Source: Methylomonas sp. EFPC3 (GTDB lineage: Bacteria; Pseudomonadota; Gammaproteobacteria; Methylococcales; Methylomonadaceae). From it: DNA of 64,000 nt. Below, piece after piece: positions 20,808 through 36,492 of this stretch. Made by a program: the position numbers and the translations under genes. The notes beneath the pieces are model-generated. The model made no database searches, was not told the DNA's origin, and saw nothing but the letters and a program-made list of their open reading frames with translations. The number at the start of each line of letters is the position of its first letter. Within the stretch, counting starts at the first letter, position 1. The stretch is taken from the NCBI RefSeq assembly GCF_029643245.1, contig NZ_CP116398.1, positions 1,550,001 to 1,614,000 on the forward strand. The letters run 5' to 3'.

Positions 20808-22100
20808 TTACAGATTGTGGTAGCCGGTCTCTTCGTGCAGCACGATATCCAGGCCTTGCTGCTCTTCATCGTCTGTGACCCGCAGACCGATCAGCACATC
20901 CAAAATCTTCAACAAGCCGTAACTGAAAACACCGCTCCAGGCGGCGGTCACCAGCACCGCCAGGGTTTGAATTGCCACTTGGTGACCGATGCTGACGCCG
21001 TTCAGCCCCAGCCCACCAAAACTCTCAGCCGCAAACACGCCGGTTAGAACGGAGCCGACGCAGCCGCCGACGCCGTGTACCGGAAACACGTCCAACGAAT
21101 CATCGATTTTCAAGCGACGCTTGACGAATTGGGTGGCATAGAAGCAGACGCCGCCCGCGACCACGCCGATTATCAAGCCGCCGATAGGCCCAACGAAGCC
21201 GGAGGCCGGCGTAATGGTGCCCAACCCAGCCACCATGCCGGTAACGATGCCCAACACGCTGGGTTTGCTATAGCGGAGCCATTCGATCGTCATCCAGGTC
21301 AAGGCGCCGGCCGCCGCCGCGATATGGGTCACGACAATCGCCATTCCGGCCGACCCGTCCGACTTCAGCGCACTACCGCCATTGAAACCGAACCAACCGA
21401 ACCAAAGCATGCCGGCGCCGGTGACCACCATCGTCATATTGTGCGGCGGCATCGCCACGGTCGGAAAACCTTTGCGCCGGCCCAACACCAATGCCGCAAC
21501 CAGCGACGCAACCCCGGCATTGACATGAATCACGATGCCGCCGGCGAAGTCCTTAGCGCCCAGCGCCGCCAACCAGCCGTTACCCCAAATCCAGTGGCAA
21601 ATCGGCATGTAGACGAAAACCAGCCACAACCCGCTGAACCAGAGCATGGCCGAAAATTTCATGCGTTCGGCAAAGGCGCCGACGATCAGTGCCGGCGTGA
21701 TGATCGCGAACGTCATTTGGAACATGAAAAACACGGTTTCCGGGATATCGCCGGTCAAACTGCGGATACCCATATCCGGCAGAAAGATCTTGGCGGCGCC
21801 ACCCAGCCACGGCTGCCAATCGCCGCCGTCGGCGAAGATAAAGCTGTAAACACCGGCCAGCCAGAGCAAAGAAACCAAACAGGTAATCGAAAAACACTGC
21901 ATCAAAACCGACAGCACGTTTTTGCTTCTGACCAGACCGCCGTAAAACAGCGACAAGCCCGGTATGGTCATGAACAAGACCAAAGCGGTGGAGGTGAGAA
22001 CCCAGGCGGTGTTGGCCTGGTTTAATTCATCGGCGAACGCCGAAACGGGTAATGCCCAGGTGGAGGCGATGAGCGTTAACGCTCTTATAATTGTTGTCAT
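20808..22100 (-). CDS. amtB: Ammonium transporter AmtB (copy 1)
   Basis: 430 aa with a signal peptide (ending AFA) and about 11 membrane helices. Family marks: NTAWVLTSTALVLFM, GLSLFYGGLVRSKNVLSVLMQ, FAIITPALIVGAFAERMKFSAM, and the pore twin-His residues in IVIHVNAGVASLV and FPVHGVGGCVGS. It conducts ammonium into the cytoplasm and is blocked by GlnK. A glnK gene lies upstream, but a 16-bp terminator hairpin separates them. The C-terminal tail (GLRVTDDEEQQGLDIVLHEETGY) is the GlnK-responsive region. It diverges clearly from copy 2, so it is not a recent duplicate. Confidence 0.95.
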   Translation of the reverse strand: MTTIIRALTLIASTWALPVSAFADELNQANTAWVLTSTALVLFMTIPGLSLFYGGLVRSKNVLSVLMQCFSITCLVSLLWLAGVYSFIFADGGDWQPWLGGAAKIFLPDMGIRSLTGDIPETVFFMFQMTFAIITPALIVGAFAERMKFSAMLWFSGLWLVFVYMPICHWIWGNGWLAALGAKDFAGGIVIHVNAGVASLVAALVLGRRKGFPTVAMPPHNMTMVVTGAGMLWFGWFGFNGGSALKSDGSAGMAIVVTHIAAAAGALTWMTIEWLRYSKPSVLGIVTGMVAGLGTITPASGFVGPIGGLIIGVVAGGVCFYATQFVKRRLKIDDSLDVFPVHGVGGCVGSVLTGVFAAESFGGLGLNGVSIGHQVAIQTLAVLVTAAWSGVFSYGLLKILDVLIGLRVTDDEEQQGLDIVLHEETGYHNL

Positions 22101-22149
22101 GGTCTATCACGAATATTGTTGTGTTGTTTTTTGACGGGCTATAAACAAC

Positions 22150-22195
22150 AAAATCGCCCTGGTCTACGTTTTACCCGCAGACCAGGGCGATTTTT
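22150..22195 (-). terminator. Strong intrinsic terminator between glnK1 and amtB1
   Basis: AAAATCGCCCTGGTCT (22150-22165) pairs perfectly with 22179-22194 over 16 bp around a 13-base loop. On the reverse strand the stem ends in GATTTTGTTGTTT, a broken T-run. It lies 40 bp after the glnK1 stop and 50 bp before the amtB1 start. Confidence 0.85.
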
Positions 22196-22234
22196 GCCGA
22201 TCTTACGCCCGACTTTCTGATTATTATCGGTGCA

Positions 22235-24161: not shown

Positions 24162-24183
24162 TGTTTGTTTCCCCATCTTGATG

Positions 24184-24525
<342 letters not shown>

Positions 24526-24692: not shown

Positions 24693-24767
24693 ATCTCTTC
24701 AAGCACAGACTCAAACATTGACGCTAAGTCTCTTCATCTGATTGATTAGTCTAAGCAAACTTCCTCC

Positions 24768-24811
24768 GCACCAAAATAAATCACAAAATCGGAATTGCAC
24801 CGTTTAGGTTC
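24768..24811. promoter_or_regulatory. Pair of degenerate NtrC-type sites upstream of the porin gene
   Basis: GCACCAAAATAAATC (24768-24782) and GCACCGTTTAGGTTC (24797-24811) each have a good left half and TC in place of the right GC. Their centres are 29 bp apart, about 116 and 87 bp upstream of the predicted porin transcript start. Confidence 0.5.
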
Positions 24812-24863: not shown

Positions 24864-24880
24864 TTGGCCCCAAAAATGCT
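24864..24880 (+). promoter_or_regulatory. Sigma-54 promoter of the porin gene
   Basis: TTGGCCCCAAAAATGCT: GG at 24866-24867 and GC at 24878-24879 with ten bases between. Predicted start near 24891 and a 28-nt leader before ATG 24919, with AGAGG as ribosome-binding site. Confidence 0.78.
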
Positions 24881-24918
24881 ATTCTTAATGCAGTAGTCAC
24901 ACACCAAGAGGTAAACCT

Positions 24919-26274
24919 ATGAAAATAATCCTTCCATCACTCAAACTTACTGCGAACACTTCGTTGGCGGCCGTCATCGCGCTGTGCTGCGGTAGCGCCA
25001 CTGCCGAAACCTGGAGCCAAGCTCCCGGTTTGCTCAGCGCAGCCGGCATCGATCCCAACGAAAGCAAATTCATGCAGGACCACAATCTGAAGTTGGGCGG
25101 ATGGTTTAACGCCAGCATTGGCGCGAACATGAGCAGCAACGGCGATGGTTTTAACGGCCCGGTCACGTTCAACGACCGCAGTGGCGAATTCCAAGTCAAC
25201 CAGTTCTACCTATATTTCCAAAAAGCCGTTACTGTCGGCGGCGATGCTTTCGATATCGGCGGACGAGTCGACGCCATGTACGGAACCGACGCGATCTTCA
25301 CTCAAGCATACGGCTCCCCGGGATTTGATCCTAAAACGCTTGAAGCCAGCGAACGCGGCAGCTGGGATTTGGGCTTGAGTGGTAACGGTGAGCGCTTTTA
25401 CGGCTTAGCCTTACCCCAGGCCTATGCGGAAATCAACTTGCCGTTTGGTAACGGTATCGACGTCAAACTCGGTCATTTTTACACCCCGATTGGTTACGAA
25501 GTCGTAACCGCGCCGGACAATTTCTTCATCACCAAACCTTATACGATGCAGTACGGCGAGCCGTTCACCCATACAGGGGTATTGGCGACCTATGCGTTCA
25601 ATCCAAACTGGACCGTAATGGGTGGTGCCGTTACCGGTAGCAGCACTGGCGGTTGGGACGGTAACTGGGACCGCGATTTGGGTAACTGGGCCTGGCTGGG
25701 AGGCGTAACCTGGACTAGCGACGACGCAGGCACCTCTCTAGCGATTACGTCTACCGCAGGCAAACGTGCCGAGCATGTTAACGATAGCTGGTCAATGTAC
25801 AGCGTGGTCGGCAAACACAATTTCACCGACAAGCTGCATTACATCATTCAGCATGACCACGGCTTCGCCCAAAACATTTGGATACCAGCTGATGCCAGCG
25901 GCAACGGCGACGCAGAATGGTATGGCATCAACCAATATTTGATTTACGACGTCAACGACAAAGTATCGGCCGGTTTAAGAGCCGAATGGTTCCGCGACCA
26001 CAACGGCATCAGAGTTTACGGCCCAGGCCGCTGCTATGCTGCATCCGCTAACCAAGGCGACAACTTCGCCTGCGGCGGCAACTATCTTGCCAGCTATACC
26101 CAAGAAGGCTCGAGCTACTATGCCGTAACTGCCGGCATGAGTTACAAGCCGGCAAAATGGCTGAATCTGAGACCAAACTTGCGTTATGACTTTACCGACG
26201 ACGCCAGAGCGTTCGATAACGGCACTCGGCAAAGCCAGTTTCTGTTTACCGCCGATGTGGTCGTGACTTTCTAA
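24919..26274 (+). CDS. Outer-membrane beta-barrel porin (OmpL-like, BBP2 type), nitrogen-regulated
   Basis: 451 aa. A signal peptide (ending SATA) precedes a long beta-rich chain with alternating strands and a terminal F (DVVVTF). Marks of the putative beta-barrel porin-2 family: LKLGGWFNASIGANMS, FQVNQFYLYFQKAV, VKLGHFYTPIGYEVVTAPDNFF, HTGVLATYAFNPNWTV. The substrate is not known. It lies between glnK2-amtB2 and glnA, and has its own -24/-12 promoter and NtrC-like sites, so I infer uptake of a nitrogen compound across the outer membrane. A terminator follows. Confidence 0.82.
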   Translation: MKIILPSLKLTANTSLAAVIALCCGSATAETWSQAPGLLSAAGIDPNESKFMQDHNLKLGGWFNASIGANMSSNGDGFNGPVTFNDRSGEFQVNQFYLYFQKAVTVGGDAFDIGGRVDAMYGTDAIFTQAYGSPGFDPKTLEASERGSWDLGLSGNGERFYGLALPQAYAEINLPFGNGIDVKLGHFYTPIGYEVVTAPDNFFITKPYTMQYGEPFTHTGVLATYAFNPNWTVMGGAVTGSSTGGWDGNWDRDLGNWAWLGGVTWTSDDAGTSLAITSTAGKRAEHVNDSWSMYSVVGKHNFTDKLHYIIQHDHGFAQNIWIPADASGNGDAEWYGINQYLIYDVNDKVSAGLRAEWFRDHNGIRVYGPGRCYAASANQGDNFACGGNYLASYTQEGSSYYAVTAGMSYKPAKWLNLRPNLRYDFTDDARAFDNGTRQSQFLFTADVVVTF

Positions 26275-28864: not shown

Positions 28865-28910
28865 GCACCATTTTGGTGCTTTTGCTCCAGCATATGCACT
28901 AAAATAAGCG
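28865..28910. promoter_or_regulatory. Tandem NtrC-type sites upstream of ntrB
   Basis: GCACCATTTTGGTGC (28865-28879) is a perfect palindromic NtrC site centred about 118 bp upstream of the predicted start. A second, GCACTAAAATAAGCG (28896-28910), keeps the left half only; the centres are 31 bp apart. Confidence 0.8.
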
Positions 28911-28962
28911 CACCATAGGCAACTTCGCCCTGCAAGGTGCATCCGCCCTGAGAATCCGGGCA

Positions 28963-28980
28963 TTGGCGTACATATTGCTT
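28963..28980 (+). promoter_or_regulatory. Sigma-54 promoter of ntrBC
   Basis: TTGGCGTACATATTGCTT: GG at 28965-28966, GC at 28977-28978, ten bases between. Predicted start near 28990 leaves a 26-nt leader to the GTG at 29016. Confidence 0.82.
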
Positions 28981-29015: not shown

Positions 29016-30071
29016 GTGCACAAAAAAATACTCGATCACTTAAACGAAGCAATCCTGCTGTTCGATAAGGATTTGCGATTAATCTACATTAACCCGGCAG
29101 GCGAAATGCTGTTAGCAGACAGCGCCAAGCATTTGCTTGGCCACACGGCGCACAAACTATTCAAAACCGCACACAGCAGCTTGTTCAATGAATTATTGCC
29201 GCGTCTGTACATGCTGGAACCCCTGGTCGATAGAGAGCTGATCCTAGAACGGCTTAACCAGTCGATTACCGTAAATCTCAGCGCGACGCCGTTACTGGAA
29301 GACGGCGAACTCAGCGAGATATTAATTGAGCTACAGCAAGTGGACCGCCATCTGCGCATTACCAAGGAAGAGCAATTGCTGGCCCAGCAAAACACCAGCC
29401 GGATGCTGGTGCGCGGTCTGGCCCACGAAATCAAAAACCCGTTGGGCGGGCTGCGCGGCGCGGCGCAATTGCTGGATTTGGAACTGCAGGATCCGGAATT
29501 GAAGGAATACACCCAAATCATCATCGCCGAATCCGACCGCTTGCAGGATCTGATGGACAAAATGCTGGGCCCGAACAAACCGGCGAATAAAAGTTTGCTG
29601 AACATTCACGAAGTGCTGGAGCGCGTCCGCCACCTAGTCGCGGCGGAATCGACCAAAGGCATCGTCTTGGAAACCAACTACGACCCCAGCATTCCAGAGA
29701 TTTTCGCCGACAAAAACCAGCTGATTCAGGCGATTCTGAACATCGTCCGCAACGCGGTGCAAGCGTTACAGAGCGACGGCGAGATCACCATCAAGACCCG
29801 GGTGCAACGGCATATGACGATCGGCCGTAAACGCTACCGGCTGACGGTAAAAATAGACATCATCGACAACGGCCCCGGCATCAAACCCGAGCTGATGGGA
29901 CAAATTTTTTACCCGATGATCACCGGCCGCGCCGAAGGAACCGGGCTGGGGCTATCGATCGCGCAATCCTTGATCAATCAGCACAACGGCCTGATCGAAT
30001 GCGAAAGCGAACCCGGCCACACCGTGTTTTCTATCTACCTACCCTTGGAGCAAAATCATGCAAATTCCTGA
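29016..30071 (+). CDS. ntrB: Nitrogen regulation sensor kinase NtrB
   Basis: 351 aa, soluble, GTG start with AAGGA upstream. The PAS domain (residues 5-110, ILDHLNEAILLFDKDLRLIYIN) is followed by the H-box VRGLAHEIKNPLGGLRGAAQ with the phosphorylated His, N-box QAILNIVRNAVQAL, G1 IDNGPGI and G2 GTGLGLSIAQSLI. NtrB phosphorylates NtrC in nitrogen limitation and acts as a phosphatase when bound by PII. It overlaps ntrC by 14 bp. The upstream sigma-54 promoter with NtrC sites implies positive autoregulation. Confidence 0.97.
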   Translation: MHKKILDHLNEAILLFDKDLRLIYINPAGEMLLADSAKHLLGHTAHKLFKTAHSSLFNELLPRLYMLEPLVDRELILERLNQSITVNLSATPLLEDGELSEILIELQQVDRHLRITKEEQLLAQQNTSRMLVRGLAHEIKNPLGGLRGAAQLLDLELQDPELKEYTQIIIAESDRLQDLMDKMLGPNKPANKSLLNIHEVLERVRHLVAAESTKGIVLETNYDPSIPEIFADKNQLIQAILNIVRNAVQALQSDGEITIKTRVQRHMTIGRKRYRLTVKIDIIDNGPGIKPELMGQIFYPMITGRAEGTGLGLSIAQSLINQHNGLIECESEPGHTVFSIYLPLEQNHANS

Positions 30072-31479
30072 CAAGGTCTGGATTGTCGATGATGACAAAT
30101 CCATTCGCTGGGTACTCGAAAAAGCCTTGCAGAAAGCCGGCGCCAACACGCAGAGCTTCTCCAATGCCGGCGATTTGCTGAAATCGCTGCCCCACGGCTT
30201 GCCGCACGTGTTGATCACCGACATCAGGATGCCCGGCATGGACGGTTTCGAACTGCTGCGCAACATTCAAAACAGCTACCCCGAGCTGCCGGTGATCGTG
30301 ATGACCGCGCACTCGGATCTGGAAAGCGCGGTATCGGCATTCCACGGCGGCGCCTTCGAATACCTGCCCAAACCCTTCGACGTTACCGAAGTCGTCGAAA
30401 CCGTACAGCGCGCCTGCGCCCACAGCCGGCAACGTCATAGCGATAACACTCAGGAACAGGAAAGGGTGCAGGAGACGCCGGAAATCATCGGCGAAGCGCC
30501 GGCGATGCAGGAGGTATTTCGCGCCATTGGCCGTCTGGCCCGTTCGCACATTACCGTGTTAATCAACGGCGAATCCGGCACCGGCAAAGAGTTGGTAGCG
30601 AAGGCGCTGCACCGCCACAGCCCGCGTGCCGACCAGCCTTTCATCGCCTTAAACATGGCGGCGATTCCCAAGGACTTGATGGAGTCGGAACTATTCGGCC
30701 ACGAAAAAGGTGCCTTTACCGGCGCCCAAGCCCGCCGCATCGGCCGCTTCGAACAGGCCAACAACGGCACCTTGTTTCTGGACGAAATCGGCGACATGCC
30801 GGCCGAATTGCAAACCCGACTATTGCGAGTGTTGGCGGATAACGAGTTTTATCCGGTCGGCGCCCACACCTCGGTCAAGGTCAACGTCCGCATCATTGCC
30901 GCCACCCACCAGGATCTGGAGGCACTGGTCGCCCAAGGCCGGTTCAGGGAGGACTTATTTCACCGTTTGAATGTAATCCGCATCCATATTCCGCCGTTGC
31001 GCGAGCGGCGGCAGGATATCGGTTTGCTGATGCGGCATTACCTCTACCAAAGTGCGAAAGAGCTAAACACCGAGATCAAAGTATTGCGACCGGATACCGA
31101 AGCGTTTCTGAGTTCCTTGCGTTGGCCGGGCAACGTCAGACAATTGGAAAACATTTGCCGCTGGCTCACAGTTATGGCATCGGGCCGGGAAATCCATATC
31201 GAGGATCTACCGCCGGAACTCAGCCAGAGCCACGCCGAAACCAGCGTAAATGAGCCCGGTAACGGCGACTGGGAAAACCAATTCAAAACCTGGGTCAAAC
31301 AACAGCTCTCGTCGGGTAAAGTCGATATCGCCAAACATGCGATTCCGTCGGTGGAAACCTTATTAATCGAGGCGGCGCTGAACCATACCCACGGCCGCAA
31401 ACACGAAGCGGCCTTACTTCTGGGTTACGGCCGTAATACGCTGACGCGCAAAATCAAAGAGCTGGATATCAAGGAATAA
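30058..31479 (+). CDS. ntrC: Nitrogen regulation response regulator NtrC
   Basis: 473 aa. Receiver domain with phosphoacceptor in VLITDIRMPGMDGFELL and K in YLPKPFD; AAA+ domain with Walker A GESGTGKE, sigma-54 contact loop GAFTGA, Walker B GTLFLDEIGDMP, and arginine-finger region FREDLFHRLNVIRIHIPPLRER; C-terminal Fis-type helix-turn-helix (GRKHEAALLLGYGRNTLTRKIKEL). It binds GC-N11-GC type enhancers and activates sigma-54 promoters. It overlaps ntrB by 14 bp. Likely targets in this window are the glnK2, porin, ntrB and sRNA promoters. Confidence 0.98.
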   Translation: MQIPDKVWIVDDDKSIRWVLEKALQKAGANTQSFSNAGDLLKSLPHGLPHVLITDIRMPGMDGFELLRNIQNSYPELPVIVMTAHSDLESAVSAFHGGAFEYLPKPFDVTEVVETVQRACAHSRQRHSDNTQEQERVQETPEIIGEAPAMQEVFRAIGRLARSHITVLINGESGTGKELVAKALHRHSPRADQPFIALNMAAIPKDLMESELFGHEKGAFTGAQARRIGRFEQANNGTLFLDEIGDMPAELQTRLLRVLADNEFYPVGAHTSVKVNVRIIAATHQDLEALVAQGRFREDLFHRLNVIRIHIPPLRERRQDIGLLMRHYLYQSAKELNTEIKVLRPDTEAFLSSLRWPGNVRQLENICRWLTVMASGREIHIEDLPPELSQSHAETSVNEPGNGDWENQFKTWVKQQLSSGKVDIAKHAIPSVETLLIEAALNHTHGRKHEAALLLGYGRNTLTRKIKELDIKE

Positions 31480-35610: not shown

Positions 35611-35952
35611 ATGAACGACTTACCCAATTGCCCGCAGTGCGGGTCCGAATACACCTATCACGACGGTAACAATTTCGTCTGCTCGTTATGCGCTCACGAA
35701 TGGACTCAGGACGCTGCCGACGCCCATAGTGACGACCTCAAGGTCATCAAAGACGCCAACGGCAATCTGCTGCAAGACGGCGACACGGTCACCGTAATCA
35801 AGGACCTGAAAGTTAAAGGTTCGTCGCTGGTGGTCAAAGTCGGCACCCGTGTCAAAAACATCCGCTTGGTGGAAGGCGACCACGACATCGATTGCAAGAT
35901 CGACGGTATCGGCGCGATGAAATTGAAATCCGAATTCGTAAAAAAAGCTTAA
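35611..35952 (+). CDS. phnA: PhnA/YjdM-type zinc-ribbon protein
   Basis: 113 aa. An N-terminal zinc ribbon ([18 protein letters not shown] then CSLCAHEW) is followed by the PhnA domain [20 protein letters not shown] and [20 protein letters not shown]. Despite the name, the protein is not needed for phosphonate breakdown in E. coli and its role is unclear. Single gene; the predicted sRNA terminator lies 30 bp downstream on the other strand. Confidence 0.92.
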
Positions 35953-35982
35953 TTCGGCCGGCCTAACCGGATTGCGAGGCGC

Positions 35983-36019
35983 AAAAAAAACGCCCTGCTT
36001 GGATTTCCAACTAGGGCGT
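35983..36019 (-). terminator. Intrinsic terminator of the predicted sRNA
   Basis: On the reverse strand AGGGCGT-type arms (36013-36019 with 35990-35996, 7 bp) enclose a second 4-bp stem (TTGG/CCAA, loop ATTT), then a run of eight T (35990-35983). No T-run follows in the forward direction, so it serves the reverse strand, where no protein gene lies. Confidence 0.88.
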
Positions 36020-36059
36020 AATGTCCACACTTGAGAACAGGTAGGAGTAACAACACACG
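35983..36059 (-). ncRNA. Predicted ~77-nt sigma-54/NtrC-dependent small RNA
   Basis: The transcript is bounded by a predicted sigma-54 start near 36059 and the terminator ending at 35983. No known protein is recognisable in it. The first ~40 bases are pyrimidine-rich and look unstructured, and contain TTACTCCTACC, which could pair with Shine-Dalgarno sequences such as TAGGAG. The rest is the terminator hairpin. Tandem NtrC-type sites lie about 97 and 128 bp upstream. The logic is that of nitrogen-regulated RNAs such as NrsZ, but neighbours differ and no homology is claimed. Length and start are inferred from the promoter and terminator only. Confidence 0.65.
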
Positions 36060-36067
36060 CTTTAGTT

Positions 36068-36087
36068 AAAGCAAAGTTAATGCCAAG
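36068..36087 (-). promoter_or_regulatory. Sigma-54 promoter of the predicted sRNA
   Basis: Reverse strand CTTGGCATTAACTTTGCTTT: TTGGCA and TTTGCT are near-consensus; GG (36084-36083) and GC (36072-36071) are ten bases apart. It is the best -24/-12 match I found in the window. Confidence 0.85.
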
Positions 36088-36148
36088 TCAAAAATACGTC
36101 GCTCCAAGCCTTTTTTGCTCCTTTGCGCGATGAATCAACTCAGAGAAC

Positions 36149-36194
36149 GCACCAAAACCACGCAATGCCGGGCAAAATTGCACCAAAAACAAGC
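36149..36194. promoter_or_regulatory. Tandem NtrC-type sites upstream of the predicted sRNA
   Basis: GCACCAAAACCACGC (36149-36163) and GCACCAAAAACAAGC (36180-36194), both GC-N11-GC, with starts exactly 31 bp apart and centred near -97 and -128 from the predicted start. The right halves are imperfect (ACGC, AAGC for GTGC). Confidence 0.62.
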
Positions 36195-36492
36195 TTCACC
36201 GTGAGCCGAATCGCCAAACTTGTCGAACCGATGTCGATCAGCCGCCATCATTCGGTCGAATACATGTTCGGCAGCTCTCCGATAGGCTATTCCGACACTC
36301 AATAAATTTCGCTTGCCCTTGACTGCTGAACAGGGCGGAGTGTTCGCCGCTTCGGCCTTAGAGGGCTCTATCCGCTTGGAGCCTCAGAGATCGCCCAATC
36401 CAGTTTTACAGCCCGCCACCTATTTGGCAGGGCAATTTGTACAGCACCAGCGTGTTAAATTACTATGTGGGAAACAACCGACGAGGACAATA

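Follow-up and report, generated by a model that had tools for sequence, protein, structure and literature searches.

As judged from its conservation in 15 genomes, which settles the matter, a real small RNA gene is kept within the genus and lies on the minus strand of a 64,000-nucleotide stretch of Methylomonas sp. EFPC3 (contig NZ_CP116398.1, positions 1,550,001 to 1,614,000; this whole stretch is called the window, and all positions below are counted within it). The gene is probably controlled by NtrC and sigma-54, and RNAs of this kind are already known (NrsZ, Qrr). The reading that we hold with some confidence is that of a free-standing, trans-acting sRNA of 75-90 nt, driven by NtrC and sigma-54 and acting by base pairing through its 5′ segment.

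Read directly on the minus strand, the locus starts with two NtrC-type sites of the form GC-N11-GC, 31 bp apart: an upstream one (GCTTGTTTTTGGTGC, 36194-36180, box TGGTGCA) and a second one (GCGTGGTTTTGGTGC, 36163-36149, box TGGTGCG). These are followed by a sigma-54 promoter with -24/-12 elements (GG-N10-GC, TTGGCATTAACTTTGCT, 36086-36070) and by the predicted small RNA of approximately 77 nt (36059-35983). Its presumed +1, near 36059, was placed 12 nt after the C of the -12 element, from which a transcript of 77 nt would result. The putative pairing region is a 5′ segment found conserved in the alignment of 15 genomes (UGUGUUGUUACUCCUAYCUGUUCUCAWGUGUGGAC, 36057-36023), and the gene is closed by an intrinsic terminator (36019-35983, recognised by sequence and covariation) with a 7-bp stem, ACGCCCT..AGGGCGT, that encloses an inner stem (36019-35990) and runs into eight T (35990-35983). 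A sequence-only reading of this DNA had pointed out both NtrC-type sites with their distance, the near-perfect promoter and the strong terminator with eight T, and each of these parts was found again. In the window the sRNA is flanked by phnA (35611-35952, plus strand) and, on the other side, by an unnamed plus-strand frame that precedes trmL. The promoter pattern TTGGCAYNNNNNTTGCW has its sole zero-mismatch match in the window at the sRNA promoter; since the pattern with up to two mismatches is not enriched there (27 seen versus 22.7 expected), the promoter motif alone is weak evidence. A shorter form, TGGCAYNNNNNTTGC, occurs 35 times in the whole genome versus 14 times for the reversed pattern. 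Motifs by themselves would not decide whether the locus is real; the comparison with relatives does.

In a DNA search of 41 genomes, the element was identified in 8 of 24 relatives of the same genus and in none of the 16 from other families of the order; among its matches, L011 and L012 look coding by eye and L010 (27 bases) was left unread. A covariance model built from nine sequences of this set recovered the element in 15 of the 37 genomes of the genus, which we infer to be Methylomonas, at E < 1e-19 with one copy per carrier, and in another genome at 6.4e-7. Outside the genus, no match among 301 genomes of the order was better than E = 1e-3, the best standing at 0.0019; the filters of this screen were stricter and may have passed over distant copies. 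An exact 24-mer search of the GTDB species genomes, in which the window's genome is possibly not included, led to seven contigs, six from Methylomonas and one from a bin; the laboratory strain LW13 is one of the carriers identified in this way. G003, G001 and G004 have copies that diverge further; these carry the core UGUGUUGUU[AC]CUCCU, in full or shortened, and have their own sigma-54 promoter and terminator.

What the 15 carriers have kept, by their alignment, is mainly the pair of TGGTGC boxes, the promoter, the terminator and a 5′ segment of 35 nt. Means over ten columns are 0.78-0.98 in the promoter, in the 5′ segment, in the T run and outer stem of the terminator, and in the second upstream box; the first upstream box has 0.60-0.80. 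They are 0.45-0.66 in the spacers, 0.40-0.59 in the inner part of the terminator and 0.02-0.60 in the outer flanks. TGGTGC is invariant in all carriers at both sites (the A that follows it at the upstream site in 14 of 15), TTGGCA and TTGC of the promoter stand at equal spacing in all of them, and 33 of the 35 columns of the 5′ segment do not vary. The seven-pair terminator stem is paired in 104 of 105 cells and has changed in a compensating manner at pair 1 (G-C/A-U) and pair 5 (C-G/U-G/U-A). Counted from the conserved start through the last T of the run, the RNA is 75-87 nt long in the carriers. Related genomes had been proposed earlier as a check, and promoter, 5′ segment and hairpin are all conserved in the 15 carriers.

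The window is a nitrogen-control region, where the minus strand carries glnK and two amtB genes, and the plus strand glnA, ntrB and ntrC. The sensor kinase gene ntrB (29016-30071, NF008293, 379 bits, cut-off 240) and the gene of the presumed activator, ntrC (30058-31479, TIGR01818, 735 bits, cut-off 558.6), are both above their family cut-offs; the second amtB was named from its sequence, and the PII models for glnK score just below their cut-offs. It had been stated correctly that the sRNA gene does not follow ntrC here; that ntrBC (29016-31479) is in the same window, 4.5 kb from the sRNA, had been left unmentioned. As a side observation, ntrBC is preceded by a sigma-54-like promoter of its own, TTGGCGTACATATTGC, with an NtrC palindrome, GCACCATTTTGGTGC, above it (28865-28979, plus strand). 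In addition, an outer-membrane-protein-like gene without an NCBIfam match (24864-26274, plus strand), divergent from glnK and with a weak sigma-54-like site, is possibly a nitrogen-regulated porin.

As a reference for NtrC sites within the same genome, we used the paired GGTGC boxes at the glnK promoter (24767-24801, minus strand), identified by pattern search. GGTGCR-N21-27-GGTGCR is found at only two places in the window, the glnK promoter and the sRNA, where 0.58 would be expected, and 10 of 100 shuffles reach two. The full arrangement of GGTGC, GGTGC and -24/-12 gave 107 matches versus 11 for the reversed control, with at least one in 76 of 237 genomes of the family; in 11 relatives they fall on the glnK-amtB promoter, and of the 15 sRNA loci 14 are matched, while that of G052, with its shorter spacing, falls outside the paired-box pattern. 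A -24/-12 promoter with upstream activator sites, the mark of a sigma-54-dependent, enhancer-activated sRNA, is conserved in 15 of 15 carriers, and its sites are of the NtrC type seen at glnK, which would place the sRNA in the NtrC regulon. The 15-genome footprint and the matching glnK arrangement give good support to the earlier prediction of a small RNA under sigma-54 and NtrC, and control by NtrC is likely.

It is also conceivable, though unlikely, that the same sigma-54 sRNA is driven not by NtrC but by an adjacent response regulator of approximately 465 aa (receiver-AAA-Fis by eye), which is the convergent, tail-to-tail neighbour in 9 of 15 carriers and lies 1.5-2.5 kb from the divergent copies in G003, G001 and G004. 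However, this regulator is encoded in 35 of the 37 genomes of the genus, mostly without an adjoining sRNA, and in the window's genome it is approximately 0.9 Mb away from it. It also fails to reach the cut-off in any of the 25 NCBIfam families shown, that of NtrC included, and the upstream boxes match those of the glnK promoters and of four of the five nirB leaders that were read. NtrC is favored because the boxes match glnK and because the regulator is so widespread, mostly away from the sRNA; as it occurs irrespective of the sRNA, the regulator was rejected as its partner.

The nirB genes of the genus have sigma-54 leaders with a terminator and ANTAR-type hexaloops, and the sRNA might be regarded as a relic or variant of such an attenuated leader, which we find improbable. 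The order of parts is equal (NtrC boxes, -24/-12, approximately 80-120 nt, terminator) and weak matches of the sRNA covariance model land on nirB leaders; however, 14 of 15 carriers have a convergent gene after the sRNA, and G052 has no same-strand frame of at least 70 aa nearer than approximately 370 nt past the terminator. Also, no GGAC-AAAGGC-GUCC hexaloop occurs in the sRNA throughout the 15-carrier alignment, and the Rfam models of P11 and narK RNA touch the nirB leaders, not the sRNA. The weak matches had been considered as a "second family" of sigma-54 sRNAs, and this was discarded, as they are leaders, with nirB downstream in five (by eye) and with hexaloop hairpins; in ANTAR hexaloops, the first base is A and the fourth is G.

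These nirB leaders deserve a description of their own. Each of the five (L039, L040, L045, L047 and L050, the gene named by eye) combines a sigma-54 promoter with a terminator and a hexaloop hairpin, GGAC-AAAGGC-GUCC, and NtrC-type boxes were seen in four of the five read. The Rfam models of the P11 "sRNA" (RF00625) and narK RNA (RF03032) contain, at their start or close to it, a sigma-54-like promoter, and that of P11 ends in a hairpin; with scores of 18.9 and 19.2 bits, below the cut-off, their likeness is to the nirB leader of the genus rather than to the Methylomonas sRNA. Since they align to L047 from its promoter onward, this suggests that P11 of Pseudomonas is a nirB-type leader too. 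Three further loci were observed. In L108 (G000:C1:1746600), boxes, promoter and two hexaloops stand ahead of a formate/nitrite-transporter-like frame. L057 (G166, from another genus of the family, near 1470) has a sigma-54 promoter, approximately 100 nt and a terminator, with no frame of at least 70 aa for approximately 250 nt after it, upstream of a KaiC-like gene (by eye). In the window's genome, L070 (G000:C1:1190431) combines a sigma-54 promoter, a GGACAAAGGCGUCC hairpin and a terminator before a gene like a nitrate-type transporter component (by eye), with no obvious NtrC boxes within 140 nt upstream.

The neighborhood of the sRNA changes among the carriers. It is tail-to-tail with phnA in five (the window's genome, G042, G012, G002 and G018) and with the response-regulator gene in nine, and nothing is close to it in G052. 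With such changing neighbors, the sRNA is a unit of its own, neither a leader nor a fixed antisense RNA, and sequence, covariation and neighborhood agree on a free-standing, non-coding unit with an intrinsic terminator. An action in cis on the convergent neighbor, through overlap of the 3′ ends, would fit the tail-to-tail gene found approximately 20-50 nt off in 14 of 15 carriers; yet the 5′ segment stays the same whether this neighbor is phnA, the response regulator or, as in G052, absent, so that we hold this possibility to be very slight.

As for the RNA itself, the 81 nt of 36063-35983 fold with a z-score of -2.46, equaled by 6 of 200 shuffles. A simple terminator scan of the window did not list the sRNA hairpin, presumably because of its internal loop. 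The approximately 45 unstructured bases described in the sequence-only reading hold only in part: the predicted unpaired probability of CUCCUAYCUG ranges from 0.24 to 0.83 depending on the genome, the predicted fold of the 5′ segment varies among the carriers and no conserved structure is demonstrable for it. The statement that no protein frame is recognized was right in substance, given that the two frames touching the sRNA in the window, a GTG frame of 15 codons within it and a 114-aa frame starting inside it, are not kept in relatives. It is hardly credible that the locus is a coding one, whether for a peptide as short as the 15 codons of the GTG frame in the window or for a portion of a small protein: the frame MCCYSYLFSSVDITP is present, with the sole C/T variable seed site at a third codon position, the 114-aa frame begins inside the element and own-strand frames of 82-136 aa are open across it in six carriers, but no ribosome binding site is seen ahead of the GTG, the end of the short frame shifts and reaches into the terminator in other carriers, the divergent copies in G003, G001 and G004 no longer contain this frame, and the longer frames differ in reading frame and have unlike sequences.

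For the trans-acting sRNA, the mode of action would be base pairing, and Shine-Dalgarno sequences had been suggested as its targets. This was not borne out, as 422 sampled start regions (from a 400 kb sample and the window) paired no better with the RNA than with its shuffles: the pairing energy was as low in 24 of 60 shuffles in one test, computed from unlimited duplexes and usable only for that comparison, and in 178 of 200 in another. The example given, TAGGAG of glnA, is a 6-bp match that ranks 121 of 422. The own leader of the first amtB is outside this test, in which its start was taken at 24335, the true start being near 24176. Long antisense matches are few and not common to genomes as start regions. 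In 10 genomes, AGGAGNAACAAC occurs at 20 places, of which nine are sRNA genes (in the window's genome the sRNA gene only); the remaining ones, where placeable, are inside or opposite coding frames, four of them in one shared sequence (L151 excepted). With up to three mismatches, ACAGGTAGGAGTAACAA was found at seven places in three genomes versus 22 for the reversed control, and AGGAGTAACAACACA, with up to two mismatches, at 13 (three being sRNA genes) versus six for the control, a slight excess. One antisense-match place is at a start codon (L183, in G011), and no gene has its start region matched in two genomes, as far as a crude reading of the frames shows. Shine-Dalgarno targeting was rejected, given the lack of excess over shuffles and of a start region common to genomes.

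A better candidate, although a tentative one, is the second amtB (amtB2; start codon at 22100, minus strand), whose leader holds the site AACAACACA (22128-22120, minus strand), complementary to UGUGUUGUU at the 5′ end of the sRNA. In the window's genome this is a match of 9 bp that ranks 15 of 422, and as it is one of 11 genes picked by hand, the match alone is not significant. In the AmtB2 loci of 30 of the 37 genomes of the genus (the seven without a returned AmtB2 locus enter no count), ACAACAYA stands ahead of amtB2 in all 15 carriers and in none of the 15 other genomes, G003 with its divergent sRNA copy being one of the latter. G018 has U for C, by which the pair is kept as G-U, G013 and G024 have 8 bp and eight carriers have 10 bp. 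Among eight divergent carriers, no conserved block between the tail of the leader hairpin and the ATG is longer than CAACACA. In the AmtB2 tree, 14 of the 15 carriers fall into one clade (the tree does not resolve the placement of G018), so the co-occurrence of RNA and site may rest on one or two events, and shared ancestry accounts for part of the 15/15 versus 0/15 correlation by the evidence of this tree. A possible other reason for the conservation of the site is pairing within the leader, since it is also complementary to UGUUGUUU of its own leader (with a C-A mismatch, UGUCGUUU, in G013, G024 and G052). The site is predicted to be paired in the window's leader, and the seed of the sRNA is not consistently predicted as unpaired. 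By analogy, amtB2 as target is supported by Pseudomonas stutzeri, where, in the part of the source available, Hfq cross-links to the amtB 5′ UTR and amtB is up approximately twofold without hfq (PMC11332353). Of the two possible signs of an effect on amtB2, repression is slightly more likely. Separately, amtB2 is preceded by a strong hairpin whose tail resembles TTTTGTTGTTT (22129-22200, minus strand); present in all 11 leaders of a first alignment and in the majority of the 30, it is possibly an attenuator inside the operon. A weak model match at 22120-22204 (plus strand) is no sRNA and was set aside: it reads the complementary strand of the amtB2 leader.

Rfam holds a Qrr model. A search of the window against Rfam gave no family at the gathering score, P11, narK RNA and Qrr included, and over 35950-36200 at E <= 10 there were three matches at chance level (E 2.6-7.1), none of them P11, narK RNA or Qrr. 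Like the Qrr sRNAs of Vibrio, which, in the sources as far as accessible, are under the NtrC-type activator LuxO, the Methylomonas RNA would be a small trans-acting RNA. Qrr RNAs also have a sigma-54 promoter and a terminator; they serve quorum sensing and occur in several copies per genome, whereas the Methylomonas sRNA has one copy per carrier. NrsZ of Pseudomonas aeruginosa is, in the excerpt available, a nitrogen-limitation sRNA with a sigma-54 promoter under NtrB/NtrC control (PMC8395346). In the same partial record, NrsZ is approximately 226 nt long, processed, located between ntrC and PA5126 and an activator of rhlA, in contrast to the 75-90 nt of the Methylomonas sRNA, which does not directly follow ntrC as NrsZ does: in the window it stands 4.5 kb, or five genes, from ntrC, and in most carriers beside other genes. 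The NrsZ motif, given as ACAGGCAG in the text accessible (PMC9308961), is absent from the RNA strand in the 15-carrier alignment. Thus, by place, length or motif, the Methylomonas sRNA is not NrsZ. NcS25 of Burkholderia, as far as its source was at hand, is likewise conserved, touches nitrogen metabolism and has a tail-to-tail neighbor, with a gene for a sigma-54 regulator near the Pandoraea copy; however, it is constitutive, has a terminator in common with its neighbor and represses a porin at the Shine-Dalgarno sequence (PMC10117139).

Under nitrogen limitation, phosphorylated NtrC would bind the two upstream sites and activate sigma-54 polymerase at -24/-12, and the transcript would end at the intrinsic terminator approximately 77 nt downstream of its start. 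The RNA would then act through its conserved 5′ segment by base pairing, with UGUGUUGU(U)(A) pairing to (U)(A)ACAACACA in the amtB2 leader, approximately 20-30 nt upstream of the start codon, by which translation of amtB2 may be altered relative to the rest of the glnK-amtB cluster. RNA and amtB2 site do co-occur in the genus. A loop closed by RNA, in which NtrC induces both glnK-amtB and the sRNA, and the 5′ end of the latter pairs with the amtB2 leader in competition with the leader hairpin, is a speculative extension that we think less probable than its absence; if true, one of the two ammonium transporters would be set apart after transcription.

In the limited collection of literature on methanotrophs and small RNAs at hand, no report of such a regulatory RNA in gammaproteobacterial methanotrophs was found, and the Methylomonas transcriptome paper names, in the part available, only housekeeping RNAs (PMC6373157). 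With its single copy, clear limits, predicted signal and testable target, the sRNA gene would offer a direct route to the question of whether RNA takes part in methanotroph nitrogen control. Nitrogen supply affects methane oxidation, both in nature and in bioreactors.
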